DNA of 64,000 bases, taken from assembly GCF_010015585.1 (NCBI RefSeq), contig NW_022985068.1, positions 1,247,406 through 1,311,405 of the forward strand, read 5' to 3'. Positions 13,389-55,983 of the stretch are shown in pieces (position 1 is the stretch's first letter; each line of letters opens with the position of its first letter). Made by a program: the position numbers and the translations under genes. Origin of the DNA: Eremomyces bilateralis CBS 781.70 (Eukaryota > Ascomycota > Dothideomycetes > Eremomycetales > Eremomycetaceae). The notes beneath the pieces are model-generated. The model was not told the DNA's origin, did not search any database, and worked only from the letters and a program-made list of their open reading frames with translations.

Positions 13389-13390
13389 GA

Positions 13391-13448
<58 letters not shown>
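13389..13448 (+). repeat. (GAAA)15 microsatellite
   Basis: Fifteen uninterrupted GAAA units. It lies just upstream of the readable part of the broken HET gene, and frames crossing it (KERKKERK) are artefacts of the repeat. Confidence 0.97.
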
Positions 13449-13449
<1 letters not shown>

Positions 13450-25114: not shown

Positions 25115-28100
25115 ATGCAGCGGCCAGCCTTAACCGTTTCAGCACCTTCATTGGAAATAGGAACACCATCAAAGTCGACCGCAGACGTCTCTGACAAGGC
25201 GACTACAGCTTTCGTCCGGCGTACACTATGCTCTCAGAACAACACGGGAGATCTGGGCCGAGTGACGCCGCGCCCGGTTGAGGAGTTGCTACCGCCATTG
25301 ACCAGCTCAAACGATGTGGACCTTCAGCTTTACGGGTTCATTGCGATCATTATCAAGGAGTTCGTGTATAGTTGGTATTCGAAAATTACGCCCGATCACA
25401 CCTTTGTGGACGAGGCAATCCGAATCGTTGCACACTGCACGCGCGCATTGGAACAACGGCTTCGACAAGTCGACTTAGAATCGCTTCTCTTAGACGAGAT
25501 CCCAGATTTGATCGATGCGCATGTTACCGGTATGTGTTGCTCAGGTTGTGAAACCTCTTCCAGTTGAATTCATGGCGCTAAATAACATCGCTCCTTTACA
25601 GCCTACCGTGTCGCGCACCAATCCGCCGACTTGCATCCCTACTCTGCTGGAGCAAGGCAGGTCTATCACACCCTCAACCCGCATCCAGCACTATCGCCCG
25701 CACCGGTGCCTGCGAACCCGGAAACTGTTCGCGAACAAGAACGGAATGAGGAGGCGTGGCGTCATTTGTTGGTGCAGGGAGTATTGGCGGTACTCCTCCC
25801 AACGGAAGATCTCGAGAATCGTTGCCTTCATGCGTTAGTAACGGAAAGTTTGGCCGAAATGATCCTTGGCACAGGGGTCAGCGGAAGAGTCTGTGAGGGA
25901 TGGGTACTGTGGGAAGGCATTACGAAAGCCATCGGGGCTGCGAAGTCACGTTCAACCGACTTGAAAGAGATGAAGAGGAGCAAACGAAGGTTGGGCTCGT
26001 TGGGTCGGCTCGAACGCTTTGGGTTACTCTCCTCGCACGGCGCTGATAAGTTTCCGAGAAGAGCATCCAGCTGGACATCTCTATCCGGATCTGTTTCAGC
26101 GTGGTTTTGGATTGCTGCCCAATATGTATTTTTGGCGTTTACGGCATTACGCGGGGCGATCATTGCATTTGCAACATCATCCTCCTTACCGGCAAGAGGG
26201 GCAGCGATCGCAAAATCACCATCCGTCGAAGTCGCGCATAGCGAAATTCCCTCATTCAAATCCGAAAGTGGAAGACAGGCCCCGGAATCGCTGCGACCTA
26301 TTGTAAGCATGAAGGCATGGGCGTGCTTTGCGAACCTAATCGAGCTGGATGACTGCATGCCATGGTTAAGTGGCTTTATTGCGATTCTCTATACGGGAGT
26401 GGTGGAGGGGCCGGGTCGGTTGGGTTACACAGACGGCACATTGGACAGGTAAGTGGACATGTCTTTCATTTCTCACTCGTGTTTTACCCAGTCAATGGTC
26501 ATGATTGTCGTGATTTTCCTCTTCGTTCCGGACATATCCGTTGCGAAACCTAGCCGGACGATTAAAACTGGTCGGCAATCCTGCCACGGTTGCTCGGTGA
26601 AAAGATTGGCTTCATTCGCATCGTCGAGCCGACCCAGCGGGCACGGGCAAAGGCAACCCGCATACGGGAGGAGTCAAGTGACCTGGCGCCAGCCAGTCAT
26701 CTCACAGGATGGCTTCTCTTATCGAACCCCCCTTGCCCTCCATTTCTGGTGTCCGTGTGCAAGGGCGTTACTGATGGAGGGTGGAGGGGCCCACCCCTCC
26801 CGTCTGCAACTCGGGCGCCCAGGCGCCCACTACAGAACGTGCCAGGAATTCCCCGCTTGCCTCCAATGTCGCAGCCCAACGGGCAAGGGTCCCACTCTGG
26901 CTTTTCTTCATTACAAGCATTCTTTGCATCTTCATTTGCTGGAGTATGCCGGGCTTGAAATTGATAACGGACACCGGTCTTTTTTTCGCCTGAAAACAAG
27001 GGAAGAGCGGATATGCAACAAAAGCCAAAAAGATTGAAGCTACTCCTTGACTTTACGACCCGGACAGGGTCTGCCGGACATCATACCAATCCTTTTTGAG
27101 ATGCCGAGCTTTCCACTTGCTGCTTGTTTCACCCTCGACTCCATGATTGATCAGCAATTCTCTCACGCTTCGGTCGATGCTAGCATGGGAATATCCAATC
27201 GTCGTCTAATCATGCTATATGATGCTGAGCAAGATATACGACTCCGCACTATGTGCAAAGAGCAGTGTATTTCGTCATGGCAATCAATGGCTGATTTCAA
27301 GCTGACTGCGGACTTGCCTCGTCTCCTTCGATGCGACGTATTGGAACTCACCTGTCAAATTTCATGGATACGCGCCCGCCTGATCTGATACCAGATATTC
27401 GGGACGAGCAGCGGCCCGCCCATGTCTGCAGGATAGCGAGCGTGCTCGTTTTGTGCATTAATTCCCTGGCGACTACGACGTTGGTCATAGCTTTTGGTGG
27501 CTTTGTGAGGTTGAGTGATATCTATCATTCTCTCTCAATTACAAGGGACCTGGTCATTCCACAAAGTCGATACGCCATGAATGTCAACGCCTCGGATCGA
27601 GCTCTCTTGCGAGCTCAGCACCTCAACGGTTCTGTTTTAGCGAGATGACGACCATGCTACTTCTATGTTCCACCATTCGGTGCCTTGCGCTGGACGACAC
27701 CATTACACATCTCAACGCTAAGGATCGGCTTATTCGTCCCTTGAGGCAGGTCTTACCTCTGGATCTTTGCGGCAATGGCACTACACGACCAAATCCCCTA
27801 GCATTGTTGAGTCGCTAGTTATGAGTTCTAGACGACAAAGAATTGGTTGCGCTCGATTTTGGATGGTTTCAACATTCCGATCCCGCCATGGTCCCAAGGA
27901 TGCCAAAAAACTCTTGACCAAGGATACACACAGCCGATGCCCACATCCATCTACCAGCGTCATCGATTTGCCGTCAATCCTTCCTTCCTTACATCGTCAT
28001 CGGTCCCGTCTCTTAGTGCGCCTGGGGAGGTCTATGCTACTAGGATGGAGCGGGGAGACACTTCCCCGGGCGCCTCATTCTCTTGGTGGCGATCAAACGG

Positions 28101-29106
28101 CTAGGACCCGTACACGCTTTTGATCGTCTCAGCAAGGCGGAATACGACCTGTATATTCCATTGTTGATTTACCATGGCCTTTGTCGAAGACAAGTGACGT
28201 GTAAAACGGATATCTCAAAACGAGATAGTCGCACAGAAACGATTCCAACCAGCCGACCAACCTTCTTTCCACCAACCGTAGACAAGCCAACACCTGGCTG
28301 TCATGGCGCTCACAGGGAATTGACGCCGTCCCTGGGGTATTCGAATTCGGCACCTCCTTGCATGTTTCGCAGCATCATCGTCCTTCAGCTTCATCCAATT
28401 GCGGACCTCGTACACATCAGTGCTCTTGCCACAATCAAAAGCCATCTAATGAATCTTCTAAACATTCCGTTATTCCACGCTTGTCTCACTTTTCAACAGC
28501 AACAATTGCGCTACCCATTCTCAAATTGTCCGGACGAACCAATCATTACCTATCTTGTTCTTGGATGCAGGCTTCCCTTGCACCGCCTTTGCGGTAGCTC
28601 ATGTGCCGTTGATATCGAAAAGTCCAGTTTCATTTCTGCGCATTTACTGACCAATGCTTTCATCTATCAGAATCCTTTCTAACCACGTCCAAACGTTGCT
28701 CCGCGCTCCAACCCTTCTGCCCACACTTCTCCGCAATGCCCGCTCGGCGCTGTTTCCCAATAACAGTCCCCCCCCTACGAGAACCGTGCCATCCATCGAG
28801 GAGCAGCTCGCTATCCGCCGGAAATGCGCGGAGACGATCGCTGGCTTGATCCCACCCTTCGTATCTGCCGTGTACTTTTCCAAAGAGAAGGTTGAGGATG
28901 GTCCGAGGCGGGTCGGAAGGGCTCCTGATGAAAAGAAGACTTCGGCTGTGGATGAGATCGAGGTGATTCTGAAGGTCTTCGGAGATACGTATATGAATAA
29001 GCATCTCATCTTTGGTGTCATCGAGTTGGTTGTCATTCGACTCTTGCCGGAGATGGCAGAGTTGGGAGTTGAAGGTCTGATGGCGGAGCGGTTGGGAGAA
29101 GTATGA
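25115..29106 (+). CDS. PXA-domain (PX-associated) protein with an intron enlarged by an insertion
   Basis: Three exons, 25115-25529, 25602-26448 and 28671-29106, give 565 residues in frame. The N-terminal PXA domain (about residues 35-290) reads PRPVEELLPPLTSSNDVDLQLYG, then FVYSWYSKITPDHTFVDEAI, ALEQRL, LPTEDLENRCLHALVTE and FAEMI-like SLAEMILGTG. It is followed by hydrophobic segments (WFWIAAQYVFLAFTALRG). The C-terminal exon reads NHVQTLLRAPTLLPTLLRN and HLIFGVIELVVIRLLPEM. PXA proteins are membrane-associated relatives of sorting nexins; this subgroup is uncharacterised. Intron 1 is 72 nt. Intron 2 (26449-28670) is 2222 nt because of an insertion. Its donor GTAAGT, branch CTGAC and acceptor TATCAG are intact, and joining the exons restores LDR|ILSNHV. 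Whether the enlarged intron is still spliced is unknown. Confidence 0.85.
26464..28637. mobile_element. 2154-bp insertion with 10-bp direct repeats inside an intron
   Basis: TTTCATTTCT occurs at 26464-26473 and again at 28628-28637. Removing the 2154 bp between the copies plus one copy leaves a 58-nt intron with a normal donor, CTGAC branch point and acceptor, which is strong evidence that the repeats are a target-site duplication. The inserted DNA holds only short overlapping frames (for example 27047-27388 and 28083-28682, +) with no transposase or polymerase motif I recognise. The ends show no convincing terminal inverted repeats and no poly-A tail. A 10-bp duplication would suit a non-autonomous Mutator-like element (9-11 bp is usual for that group), but the class is not proven. 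Confidence 0.75.
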
Positions 29107-30165: not shown

Positions 30166-32140
30166 CTAGTCTCTCATGCCCTCGCTTATGGCAACACCAA
30201 GGCCGATACCGAGTTGCTGAACGCCTCCTGGCTGCGAAAAGGACTGGCGTCTCAACTTCAACTTCTCCATCAACTTCCCGATTGTCACGTACTCTTGCGG
30301 CTCAACCAGTCCGCTCGGTTGATGCTGGAAGAACTGCATCACCACTTCAAGTGCTCGTCGGGCATCTTCTTGGCTGGGGCTACCGGCTGCTGGCTGAGGC
30401 GTCGAGTTGAGCACCGCCCGATGTTGAATAGGGCTGAATGCGCTCTCCGTGGAGGAATTCGGTGCAGTTGTGACACTAGCTGGCGTGATTGGAGACGATT
30501 GGTGCATACGGTCGAGCCGGGTCTGGACGTGGGGCATCAGGACGGGTGACGGAGAGTGAACTGGTTGGTGCTGCGCCGTCGTAAGAGGCGGAAGAGCAGA
30601 TGATGCTGACATTGAAGGAGGCGGCATCTCAGATGCGCTGGTAGCTGCGGCTTCCAGTTGTTCCTCGGCGGATGGCAGCGGGTTCGACGAAAGCTCGCCC
30701 ATCGGCGAGTCGCGCGCTGTCGATGGTATGTACTTTGGTGTTAAGGAATCTGACGTCGGACCCGTGCTGGGAGTGAAGGCTTGTGGTTCGATGCCCAGCA
30801 TTGGGAACGTCTGGCTGCGAGGACGTTGGAAGCCGTTCGAGCCGGGTGTAGTGCTACCGCTGACCGATGTCATACGACCTTTGGTTGGAACGAAAGGACT
30901 CTGTCCGGTCGCGGATTCCGGAGAGAAAAAAGGCGAAGTCGGGCTTGTAGGACCTGGAGAGAACGAAGACGGAGCCGCGTCAGTAAATACAGAAGACAGA
31001 GACGTATTGCTTTGCGAGTGGAAAGGCCGGTGGTTTTGTTGGGCCTGGTTAAAATCGAAGAAATGATCTGGACTTTCAGCCTTCCCAGCGCCGGCTCCTT
31101 CTTCTGTTTTGGTCACCGCCATAGCCAAATCGATAGGAGAGACGGTGCCGGCTGGATCCGGCGTAGTAGGCGAAATTCCTCCGGGGGTTTGAGACTGCGA
31201 AGCAGGATTGGACTGGTCCTCCGAGTCTTCTGCTATCGAGCCTTTCCGCGACTTCGAGCCTAGCAGGTTGTTCTTCGCACGGAACTTGTTTAACCAGGAG
31301 TTGCTGTTTGCCTTAGCCTGACCCTCTGAGGTGCCCAGTGCCGTCGCAAAGTACCGGAACCGCTCTCGAATCTCTTGGTCCGAAATGGCCATTCCACGTT
31401 TGTTTTGCTGGTTTCGCGCCCAGGTAGAAACAGCACGTTCAAGATCCTGGGACTTGCCTTTGCTCTTCTTCGCAGGGGAACGACTTCCATCTTCTTGGTA
31501 GAGATACTTTTCTTTGTTCCTCAGGACTTTGGAGACCGTGCTAGGCGACATTAGAACACTGATCCACAACATCACTAGTCTCCTCAAGCATACCTTCGTT
31601 CGACACCGAACATGGCTGAGCAGCTAATCTTAGCATTGCGCATTCCTTGCAGCTAGAGAGAAACTTACCACCAATTTCCGTCTGCTTCACATTCGGATGC
31701 TCCTCATGGTACAGACACATCCTTCTCCGGTCTGTATCAGTCAGCGTCTTCCGAGGCGTCGACGTTCTTGAGCTGGTCGACGTCGCAGAGATCGGCGTTG
31801 AGGCCGGCGCAACAGGCACCGCTGGCGTTGTGCTTGGATAAATGGGAGGCACGTAGGTGGACTGGCTCGTGAGCATACTGGGCCACTGTTGCTGTTGCGG
31901 CATGACCAGCGGCTGGAGTTGGTGAGTTGGTCGCGGCGGAGGCATCGTCGACGGCATGCCATGAGTGTACATTGGCTCCATTGGCATCGGAGCAAATGCG
32001 AAACCCGGATACTCGTGCACAGGAGATTGATGCACTGAGTGCGGATAGGGATTCCCGTTGGTGTCGACCCAATTGCCACCACCATCATGATATCCCCCGG
32101 TGCTCCCTGGCTCTTGATGTTGCTGGTGATCATGATCCAT
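30166..32140 (-). CDS. CENP-B/Tc5-type helix-turn-helix DNA-binding protein
   Basis: Three exons on the minus strand: 32140-31669, a 22-nt micro-exon at 31615-31594, and 31540-30166. The two introns are both 53 nt and the product has 622 residues. A Gln/Pro-rich N-terminus leads into an N-terminal HTH (about residues 130-175: LTDTDRRRMCLYHEEHP, then TEIGAMFGVERSTVSKVLR, completed by the micro-exon). A CENP-B-type second HTH follows (about 190-255: DLERAVSTWARNQQNKRGMAI, IRERFRYFATALGTSEG, SWLNKFRAKNNL). The remaining ~360 residues are Ser/Pro/Thr-rich and probably disordered, ending in a short helical tail. No DDE transposase domain is present, so this is a host protein that shares its DNA-binding half with pogo/Tigger transposases. 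It is probably a nuclear transcription or chromatin factor. The closest characterised relatives cannot be named from sequence alone. Confidence 0.85.
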
Positions 32141-53501: not shown

Positions 53502-55983
53502 TCATCTTACAAGTTTGCGCATAAATCTTCTCACAACTGACCGACGTCCGCTCTTTGCACCTTTCCCATCTACCACCTCAGCCACTTCCTCTGTCCCGCT
53601 CATGTCCGCGAGCTCTTCTATCAAAAAGTTAGTTGATGTTATTCTAGACTGATGATTAGAGAGTACCTTTCGAAAGATCAAGGGAGAACAGTCGATCCTC
53701 AAACTGCTGACATTGATCACAGGATGGCCCAAGAAGAACCTGGAAGCCAGTAAGAGCACGTGTGTACATGGTTTTAGCCTTATGTACCTCCCCTTTGGTT
53801 GCAAAGATATCGCCGAGATTTGATATAGTGTTGAGGGCCGGTCGGTATCTCGGAAGGGTCTCAGAGTCCAGTGCCTCCTCGTATCCTTGCAGCGCTCGTA
53901 TATACATCTCTTCTGCCTCCTTCAGTTTCCCTTGGTTGGCGTAGAGTGTGCCCAGGCAGTTGACCGTGCCGAGCGTCGATGTGTGCTTCGGTCCAAGTAT
54001 CTCCTCGTATCCTTGCAGCGCTCGCATGTACATCTCTTATGCCTCCTTCAGTTTCCCTTGGTCAGAGTAGAGGAGACCCAGGTTGTGAACCGTGTCGAGC
54101 GTCGAAGTGTGATTCGGTCCAAGTGCCTCCTCCTTTCCTTGCAGCGCTCGCATGTACATCTCTTCTGCCTCCTTCAGTTTCCCTTGGTCAGAGTAGAGGA
54201 GACCCAGGTTGTTGACCGTGTCGAGCGTTGTCGGATGCTTCGGTCCAAGTGCCTCCTCCTTTCCTTGCAGCGCTCGCATGTACATCTCTTCTGCCTCCTT
54301 TAGTTTCCCTTGGTCTTTGTAGAGGTCGCCCAGGTTGTGTAATGCCCACTCCATCCCGCCATTTGCGCCTTTCAGTATCGATGAACAACCAGCCGCATGC
54401 GCCAGAAGCCGTCGCTGCGTAATCCACCACCGATCACTTAAAGTTCCAGGAACATGTAACCCAATACATTTCAGCGCGAGTCTCACCATCTCCTTACTCC
54501 CGTCTGAATTTAGAACATGCCGAGTGCACGAGTGTACACAGCTGTGCATACTGTACCCTTGAGATTCTACCATCTCCTGCGAAGTCGAGTTTGCTTCTAC
54601 AAGCCTGTAGCTACATAATACCCTAACTGCATCGTCGAAATTTACTCGGTCTTCGGTAAGTTCGCGAACCCACTCCAGATCATCTAAATCGCCATGGCAA
54701 AGAAGTTCGAACCAGAGGTCCTGATTGTCGAAGTACGCCCACAGTTGTAGGAGCTGGGCCGAAAGTCGGTTCTGTTCTTGAACATGAAGGAGATGTCCCA
54801 TGTAGAGTAGAGTGTTCGATCTTCGTATGAGCTGAGCTCCGGACTTCTCTTTTGCAGTTTTAACCATGATTCCTGATATAGACGAAGATACTCCGCCAAA
54901 CTAGTTGTCACTTGTTCAAGATATGCCCCAGCTGTTGCAAGTGCAAGAGGGAGTCCGTCTAACTCGTTTACAAGCTTGACTGCGTCGGGATCTGTCGGTC
55001 CAGTTAGAATAATTCCTATAATTTAAGATATTTCCTACCTCTCATCAGGCCTTCGCGTCTTGATGTATCCGATAGTATTTCAAGACAATCCTGCATGTTC
55101 TCCAGCTTTCGGACTGGGATACGATGGCCAATAGTGACCCGAGACGACCGCGTAGTAATAATAACCGATCCTTGATGTGATTCAGGCAGGTACTTCCGGA
55201 TTTCCAATGTCGCGACATCCGTGTTGCCTGCTACTTTTGGATTGTCGTAGTTGTCATAGACGACCAGCCATCTTGTGTTCTTGGGGAGACTCAACCAACC
55301 TTTGACAGCCTCTACCACCTCCCCCAAGCTCCCTTTCAAATCTACACTACTAAGACGTTGAGCAGACGGATGTTCTTGTAGTATCCTCCTAGCTGCATTG
55401 CCAAAGCTCTGCCTAAGAGAATCCTCATCTTTGGCGTTAAGCCAGAGCATTGCCGAGTAGCTATCTCGATAATGCTTCGTATATGCAACCGTCAGTTGTG
55501 TCTTACCGATTCCTCCCAAACCGTAAAGGACAGCGATGCGACGGCTACCATCGCTACTAAGTGTTTGGTGTATTTTTTTAAGCTGTCTCTCGCGCAACAA
55601 AGTGCTCCGTCTCCGAGGCATCAGCGAGACTAAAGCCGGCGGAAAAGTCTTCGAAATGGTCGCCTAGTCCCGTCAACGCTATCCTAGTCCCTATATTCAC
55701 TGAAGTAATTAGAAAAGAGCTAGGAGGATGCCCTACCCGTCGATGCTTTTTCAATCTCGAAATGGAGCCGCCGGAATGCATTGTCTCCCCCTTTGTCAGG
55801 CTCAGTCCCCCGCTGCCACTGCGCTTCAATAGACGCATTCCTTTTGCTTGAGCCGGGAAATGTTCCACTGAATGAGTTTCTTGATGGAATCAAACATCGT
55901 TTCTTGTCAAGAAGCAAATGAAACATGATTGGGACGTGGTCGTAGACTGGGAAATGCGGATAAGGCTGGGGAGGGCGGTGCAT
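53502..55983 (-). pseudogene. Broken NLR/STAND gene: NB-ARC with kinesin-light-chain-type TPRs
   Basis: Minus-strand reading gives, in order, a short N-terminal part, then the linker GFSLADASETEHFVARE. The NB-ARC domain follows with Walker A GLGGIGKTQ (about 55530-55505), kinase-2-like WLVVYDNYDN, GSVIITTRSS, and after a 47-nt intron (54992-55038) NELDGLPLALATAGAYLEQV. A helical region (LSAQLLQLWAYFDN, MHSCVHSCTRHVL) leads to at least five 42-residue TPR units (LGDLYKDQGKLKEAEEMYMRALQGKEEALGPKH pattern). A last exon after a 49-nt intron (53618-53666) ends RRFMRKLVR at 53502. Two frame changes and one internal stop break it, so no full-length product is expected. Fungal NLRs of this type act in non-self recognition and incompatibility. 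Any N-terminal effector domain is missing or unrecognisable. Confidence 0.85.
53863..54366 (-). repeat. Tandem 126-bp repeats encoding TPR units
   Basis: The period is exactly 126 bp (42 codons): the hexamer CGGTCC recurs at 53989, 54115 and 54241 on the plus strand. The inner units are nearly identical in DNA, including silent positions, while the outer ones have diverged. Such high internal identity indicates recent duplication or concerted evolution within the NLR gene. Confidence 0.88.

Follow-up and report, generated by a model that had tools for sequence, protein, structure and literature searches.

A predicted intron of 2,222 nt, in a stretch where the other modelled introns are short, raises the question of how it came to be so long and whether the gene around it is still spliced. 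We analyzed it in a 64-kb window of a fungal genome (the whole stretch of DNA studied here, free of N). The host gene was modelled on the forward strand as three exons (25115-25529, 25602-26448 and 28671-29106), which splice to an open frame of 565 aa with its stop codon at 29104-29106; the ATG at 25115 was chosen as the putative start. Exon 1 carries an in-frame match to PXA (PF02194), and joining it to exon 2 across the 72-nt intron 1 (25530-25601, GTATGT...TTACAG) lifted the PXA score; with that junction made, the profile search returned 172.6 bits over profile positions 1-180. PXA was the sole family found in the 565-aa protein at E<=1, with neither PX nor RGS, and Nexin_C was absent from the results for the whole protein at the same threshold. 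Exon 2 appears to hold the remaining PXA, a linker and the start of a Nexin_C/PXC region and ends in ...GTLDR, while exon 3 would carry the rest of that region up to the stop codon. Exon 3 by itself scored 17.1 bits against Nexin_C (PF08628); adding exon 2 brought the score to 21.0 bits, with a match that begins upstream of the exon 2/3 junction. The joined C-terminal 210 aa thus reached E 0.00046 at a score just below the 22.3-bit cut-off, and the exon-2 tail on its own gave no Nexin_C match. Since joining the exons raised the score, the exon 2/3 splice is credible, with modest support from Nexin_C.

The gene looks like the Nvj3 type, PXA plus Nexin_C/PXC. Three PXA-PXC proteins, one of them of the short Nvj3 type, are described in C. 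thermophilum, and PXA and PXC are predicted to be intertwined, neither being likely to fold alone (PMC8864675). Since the two would hardly fold separately, the open frame of exon 3 is sensible mainly when spliced on. The genome itself had three PXA matches, and two 3.5-kb loci with PXA paralogues, L029 and L031, offered no 400-aa ORF for comparison. No relative of exon 2 was confirmed in viral and prokaryote contigs, as expected, and a search of solved structures returned three non-significant matches (best E 0.94). Next to the gene, at 30169-31623 on the minus strand, is the frame of what is probably a host protein, with a DNA-binding domain of the Tc5-transposase type (PF03221).

Intron 2 (26449-28670) has the sequence signals of a spliceosomal intron: a GTAAGT donor at 26449, a branch-like CTGAC at 28647-28651, a CAG acceptor ending at 28670, and exons that join in frame as ...GTLDR|ILSNHV.... 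Inside it the 10-bp sequence TTTCATTTCT occurs at 26464-26473 and again at 28628-28637, and a scan of both strands of the window found no further copy. Deleting the 2,154 bp between them (26474-28627) together with one copy leaves a canonical 58-nt GT-AG intron that still contains CTGAC. The earlier note had described this repeat as a target duplication and had reported the intact donor, branch site and acceptor, the LDR|ILSNHV junction and a 58-nt remnant of normal local size; our analysis confirmed the repeat, the signals, the junction and the remnant, with neighbouring introns of 56, 59 and 72 nt. We estimated how often such a repeat would arise by chance. Runs of at least 10 were shared in 8 of 3979 usable draws of random 60x60-nt pairs from the window, and in 30 of 5000 first-order resamplings of the real intron ends. 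A chance origin at 0.2-0.6% by these simple models is unlikely, yet not overwhelmingly so; because the repeat was picked post hoc, the low rate favours an insertion without proving it.

The comparison introns were one of 72 nt in the same PXA gene, one of 59 nt in Med10 and one in a P450 gene, for which 56 nt was the better of two candidates (the 107-nt alternative lacks a branch motif); for a second P450 intron the candidates were 43 or 85 nt. A motif-scan survey of intron sizes, made in two scans that proved powerless, showed no clear excess over controls. In an account of A. nidulans, the median intron measures 59 bp and 95% of the introns fall within 46-228 bp, one intron of 1.4 kb (AN4076) is confirmed, and certain introns span snoRNA loci (PMC4046813). 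Spliceosomal introns of such length are rare among filamentous ascomycetes. The AN4076 intron and intron 2 are alike in being GT-AG introns far beyond the usual 46-228 bp in genes with open frames. Intron 2 differs in its length of 2,222 nt, in the internal flanking 10-bp direct repeat, which implies an insertion, and in that its splicing is predicted. Taken together, the repeat, the 58-nt remnant, the intact signals, the short neighbouring introns and the Nexin_C match across the junction favour an insertion into an intron of normal size.

We searched the genome (26.63 Mb in 62 contigs) for a source or further copies of the segment. At E<=0.001 the 2,154-bp segment matched one place, its own; the entire intron 2 likewise had one genomic place at E<=10, and both segment ends were unique with up to 3 mismatches allowed. 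The absence of a match in such a search is by itself no proof that a sequence is rare, but the same search placed a 1,045-bp MULE body at 30 sites with 69-100% identity, copies of 69-88% among them, indicating that it works for diverged repeats. The further copies with the same ends that the earlier note had proposed to look for in this genome did not appear. The MULE family with these 30 places includes fragments and frames containing stops. Against the rest of the window the segment gave no blastn match at E<=1 and no tblastx match at E<=0.5, and a local duplication was rejected despite a 12-nt word common to the segment and exon 2. The segment has a GC content of 0.511, unremarkable beside a window mean of 0.530 (sd 0.039). 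GC and CpG were host-like and composition overall was largely so, with a (CpA+TpG)/(ApC+GpT) ratio of 1.38 near the top of the window range (mean 1.18, sd 0.10, maximum 1.43) and a TpA/ApT ratio of 0.50. Both ratios run opposite to the directions that RIP produces, and a RIP-decayed repeat was rejected.

The segment contained no coding signal that our tests detected. Its 7 ORFs gave no Pfam family above the cut-off (one weak match to SLFN-g3, E 0.041), 8 ORFs gave no PHROG match, and the period-3 signal peaked at 1.29 over 21 windows against a shuffled 95% level of 1.68. The period-3 test lacks full sensitivity, as 2 of 6 exon-2 windows fell below 1.29. Codon scores were weak too in a low-powered test where host exons reached merely ~10-20 in their own frame. 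These results led us to reject a nested gene and bear out the earlier note, which had seen no recognisable coding capacity. Stop-free runs of 194 codons (26453-27037) and 209 codons (28044-28670) were nonetheless present in intron 2, lengths at which the longest run was reached in 6.3% of 1000 resamples and the second-longest in 1.0%. Neither of these two longest frames had a family match, and in the genome they matched only themselves at E<=10. Given these somewhat long runs and the imperfect sensitivity of the period-3 test, a small unrecognised gene in the segment is possible. A structured RNA was rejected, since Rfam returned no family for the intron 2 segment at E<=1 and a tRNA search found none. 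Foreign DNA was rejected as well: plasmids and phages gave no match to the segment, and one exact 24-base pattern was missing from viral contigs. A promoter scan with a bacterial consensus did not rise above shuffles.

The earlier note had proposed that a mobile element, perhaps a Mutator-like one, had landed in the intron. The 10-bp repeat indeed falls within the 8-11 bp reported for the duplications that MULEs make, and some MULEs lack TIRs (PMC6446971). The genome holds 19 MULE transposase matches, and we examined 18 stretches around them, two of which overlap by 2.6 kb and two of which contain N runs. Twelve of the 18 loci had no inverted arms of at least 50 bp other than N runs, indicating that not every resident MULE need have long TIRs; 4 others had inverted arms of at least 50 bp and no duplication. 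The two loci with definable ends showed inverted repeats of 62 bp (3 bases trimmed) and 237 bp with a 9-bp duplication. In the second of them (L013:3364-6608, G000:C1) the duplicated sequence is ATTAAATCC, and the frame at the transposase is open over 498 aa. The segment, as the earlier note had stated, has no TIR (the best 30-bp register among 7 offsets paired 15/30); this sets it clearly apart from some MULE families only, and does not fully exclude a MULE, since non-TIR forms exist. It also showed no transposase and no sequence common to an autonomous relative: against the 18 loci there were only matches of 14-25 bp (best blastn E 0.32, best tblastx E 0.20), and five 1,200-bp MULE slices had GC of 0.458-0.475 and TpA/ApT of 0.86-1.03 versus 0.511 and 0.50 in the segment. 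The single genomic place and the unique ends also speak against a Mutator-like element, and of the features examined the length of the repeat is the one that points to it.

A tyrosine-recombinase (Crypton-type) element would account for the missing TIRs and the short terminal direct repeats, both of which are described for fungal Cryptons, though the reported repeats are mostly 6 bp rather than 10 (PMC3212892). The genome has 46 matches to DUF3435 on 17 contigs, of which 44 exceed the cut-off; several belong to a single gene in fragments, and many have open frames. DUF3435 (PF11917) is the tyrosine-recombinase family of Starship captains. No such domain was present in the 7 segment ORFs, nor was a second copy found. 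A lone non-autonomous element of a known class, TIR-less MULE or Crypton-type, is therefore improbable, the uniqueness of the segment and its lack of any transposase or recombinase trace in the searched ORFs counting against it. A LINE-type copy and a Helitron were also rejected by eye, neither end having an A- or T-run and the Helitron end rules being unmet. The segment might instead be the sole genomic copy of an undescribed non-autonomous element with no inverted repeats and a 10-bp duplication that spared the splice signals, giving a nearly forty-fold growth of the intron in one step with function retained; we regard this as doubtful. Of the earlier proposal, insertion has stood as the best reading, while mobility found no support in a second copy, a TIR or a transposase remnant.

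Whether the gene is still expressed as one protein depends on the splicing of intron 2. Since the old splice signals are intact, removal of the whole intron is most likely. A competing 43-nt mini-intron (26449-26491, plus strand) emerged as a candidate from the motif scan; it would pair the intron 2 donor with a CTCAC where repeat and insert meet and with a CAG inside the insert, and a protein made from this splice would terminate as ...LDSQWS-stop. We considered whether secondary structure could pull the donor towards the branch site. In the predicted fold the donor-branch path was 37, compared with a mean of 20.3 (sd 9.3) for 40 resampled inserts (36 shorter, 1 equal and 3 longer), so that the real insert brings the two sites no closer and this idea was rejected. 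Read unspliced, exon 2 stops as LDR-stop at the TAA inside the donor, and exon 3 can be read in frame from an ATG at 28654, which gives 150 aa. The gene could thus have been split in two, with the insert supplying a terminator and a promoter. Fungal leaders are pyrimidine-rich, and the 300 bp at 28341-28640 have a pyrimidine fraction of 0.61, in the top 8% of window stretches, which would suit such a fission although the rank is not extreme. Fission would, however, cut through the Nexin_C/PXC region, and since PXA and PXC are predicted to intertwine and would hardly fold without each other (PMC8864675), we consider it very unlikely. An assembly artefact would fit the single occurrence of the segment, but the window has no N, its contig (contig 2) is 2.1 Mb long, the segment ends are unique and an exact 10-bp repeat stands at the junctions; of all the readings we give this one the least weight.

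The reading that we prefer, with a probability of about 0.58, is that a staggered break captured host-like, non-coding DNA in a one-off event and that the gene is still spliced. DNA fragments captured at double-strand breaks form a known class; they are one-off, have no element ends and may be flanked by a short duplication from staggered ends. The 2,154 bp would have entered the 58-nt intron of the Nvj3-like PXA-PXC gene once, at a break staggered by 10 nt whose fill-in left TTTCATTTCT on either side. The old donor, branch site and acceptor would have been unharmed, the spliceosome would most likely excise the intron over its full 2,222 nt, and production of the PXA-PXC protein would continue, with some transcripts perhaps lost to the cryptic 43-nt intron. 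We infer a capture rather than a transposition, and probably a one-off accident rather than a new kind of mobile element.

This reading carries a tension of its own. The perfect repeat suggests a recent event, and a recent nuclear copy should leave a source in the assembly, as break-captured fragments usually do; none was found, which would mean that the source has moved, was foreign, lies outside the assembly or has already diverged. The same result speaks for the main rival, an old or lineage-typical long intron in which the 10-bp repeat arose by chance and which may contain regulatory sequence or give rise to a non-coding transcript. That no source or second copy was found while the MULE control worked, that composition is largely host-like, and that a post hoc repeat has some chance of arising (8/3979 and 30/5000) are all consistent with an old intron, for which the confirmed 1.4-kb intron and the introns spanning snoRNA loci of A. 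nidulans offer precedents (PMC4046813). Against it, the repeat is placed exactly where its excision yields a canonical 58-nt intron, no Rfam family was present at E<=1, and the other introns modelled in the window are short. Weighing the young repeat against the missing source, we hold insertion at the level given above and regard the old intron as a tentative alternative, unlikely but the most serious of the rivals. If relatives have an empty site and the transcript is still spliced, the locus would be a dated natural test of whether the splicing machinery of a fungus, adapted to ~60-nt introns, can remove more than 2 kb. It would then bear also on how compact genomes come to have long introns; if not, it is one isolated, unusual intron.

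Repeats of other kinds were seen elsewhere in the window. At 53866-54339 a 126-bp unit occurs 3.8 times in tandem and overlaps a TPR gene, and at 13389-13449 GAAA is repeated 15 times in perfect copies.
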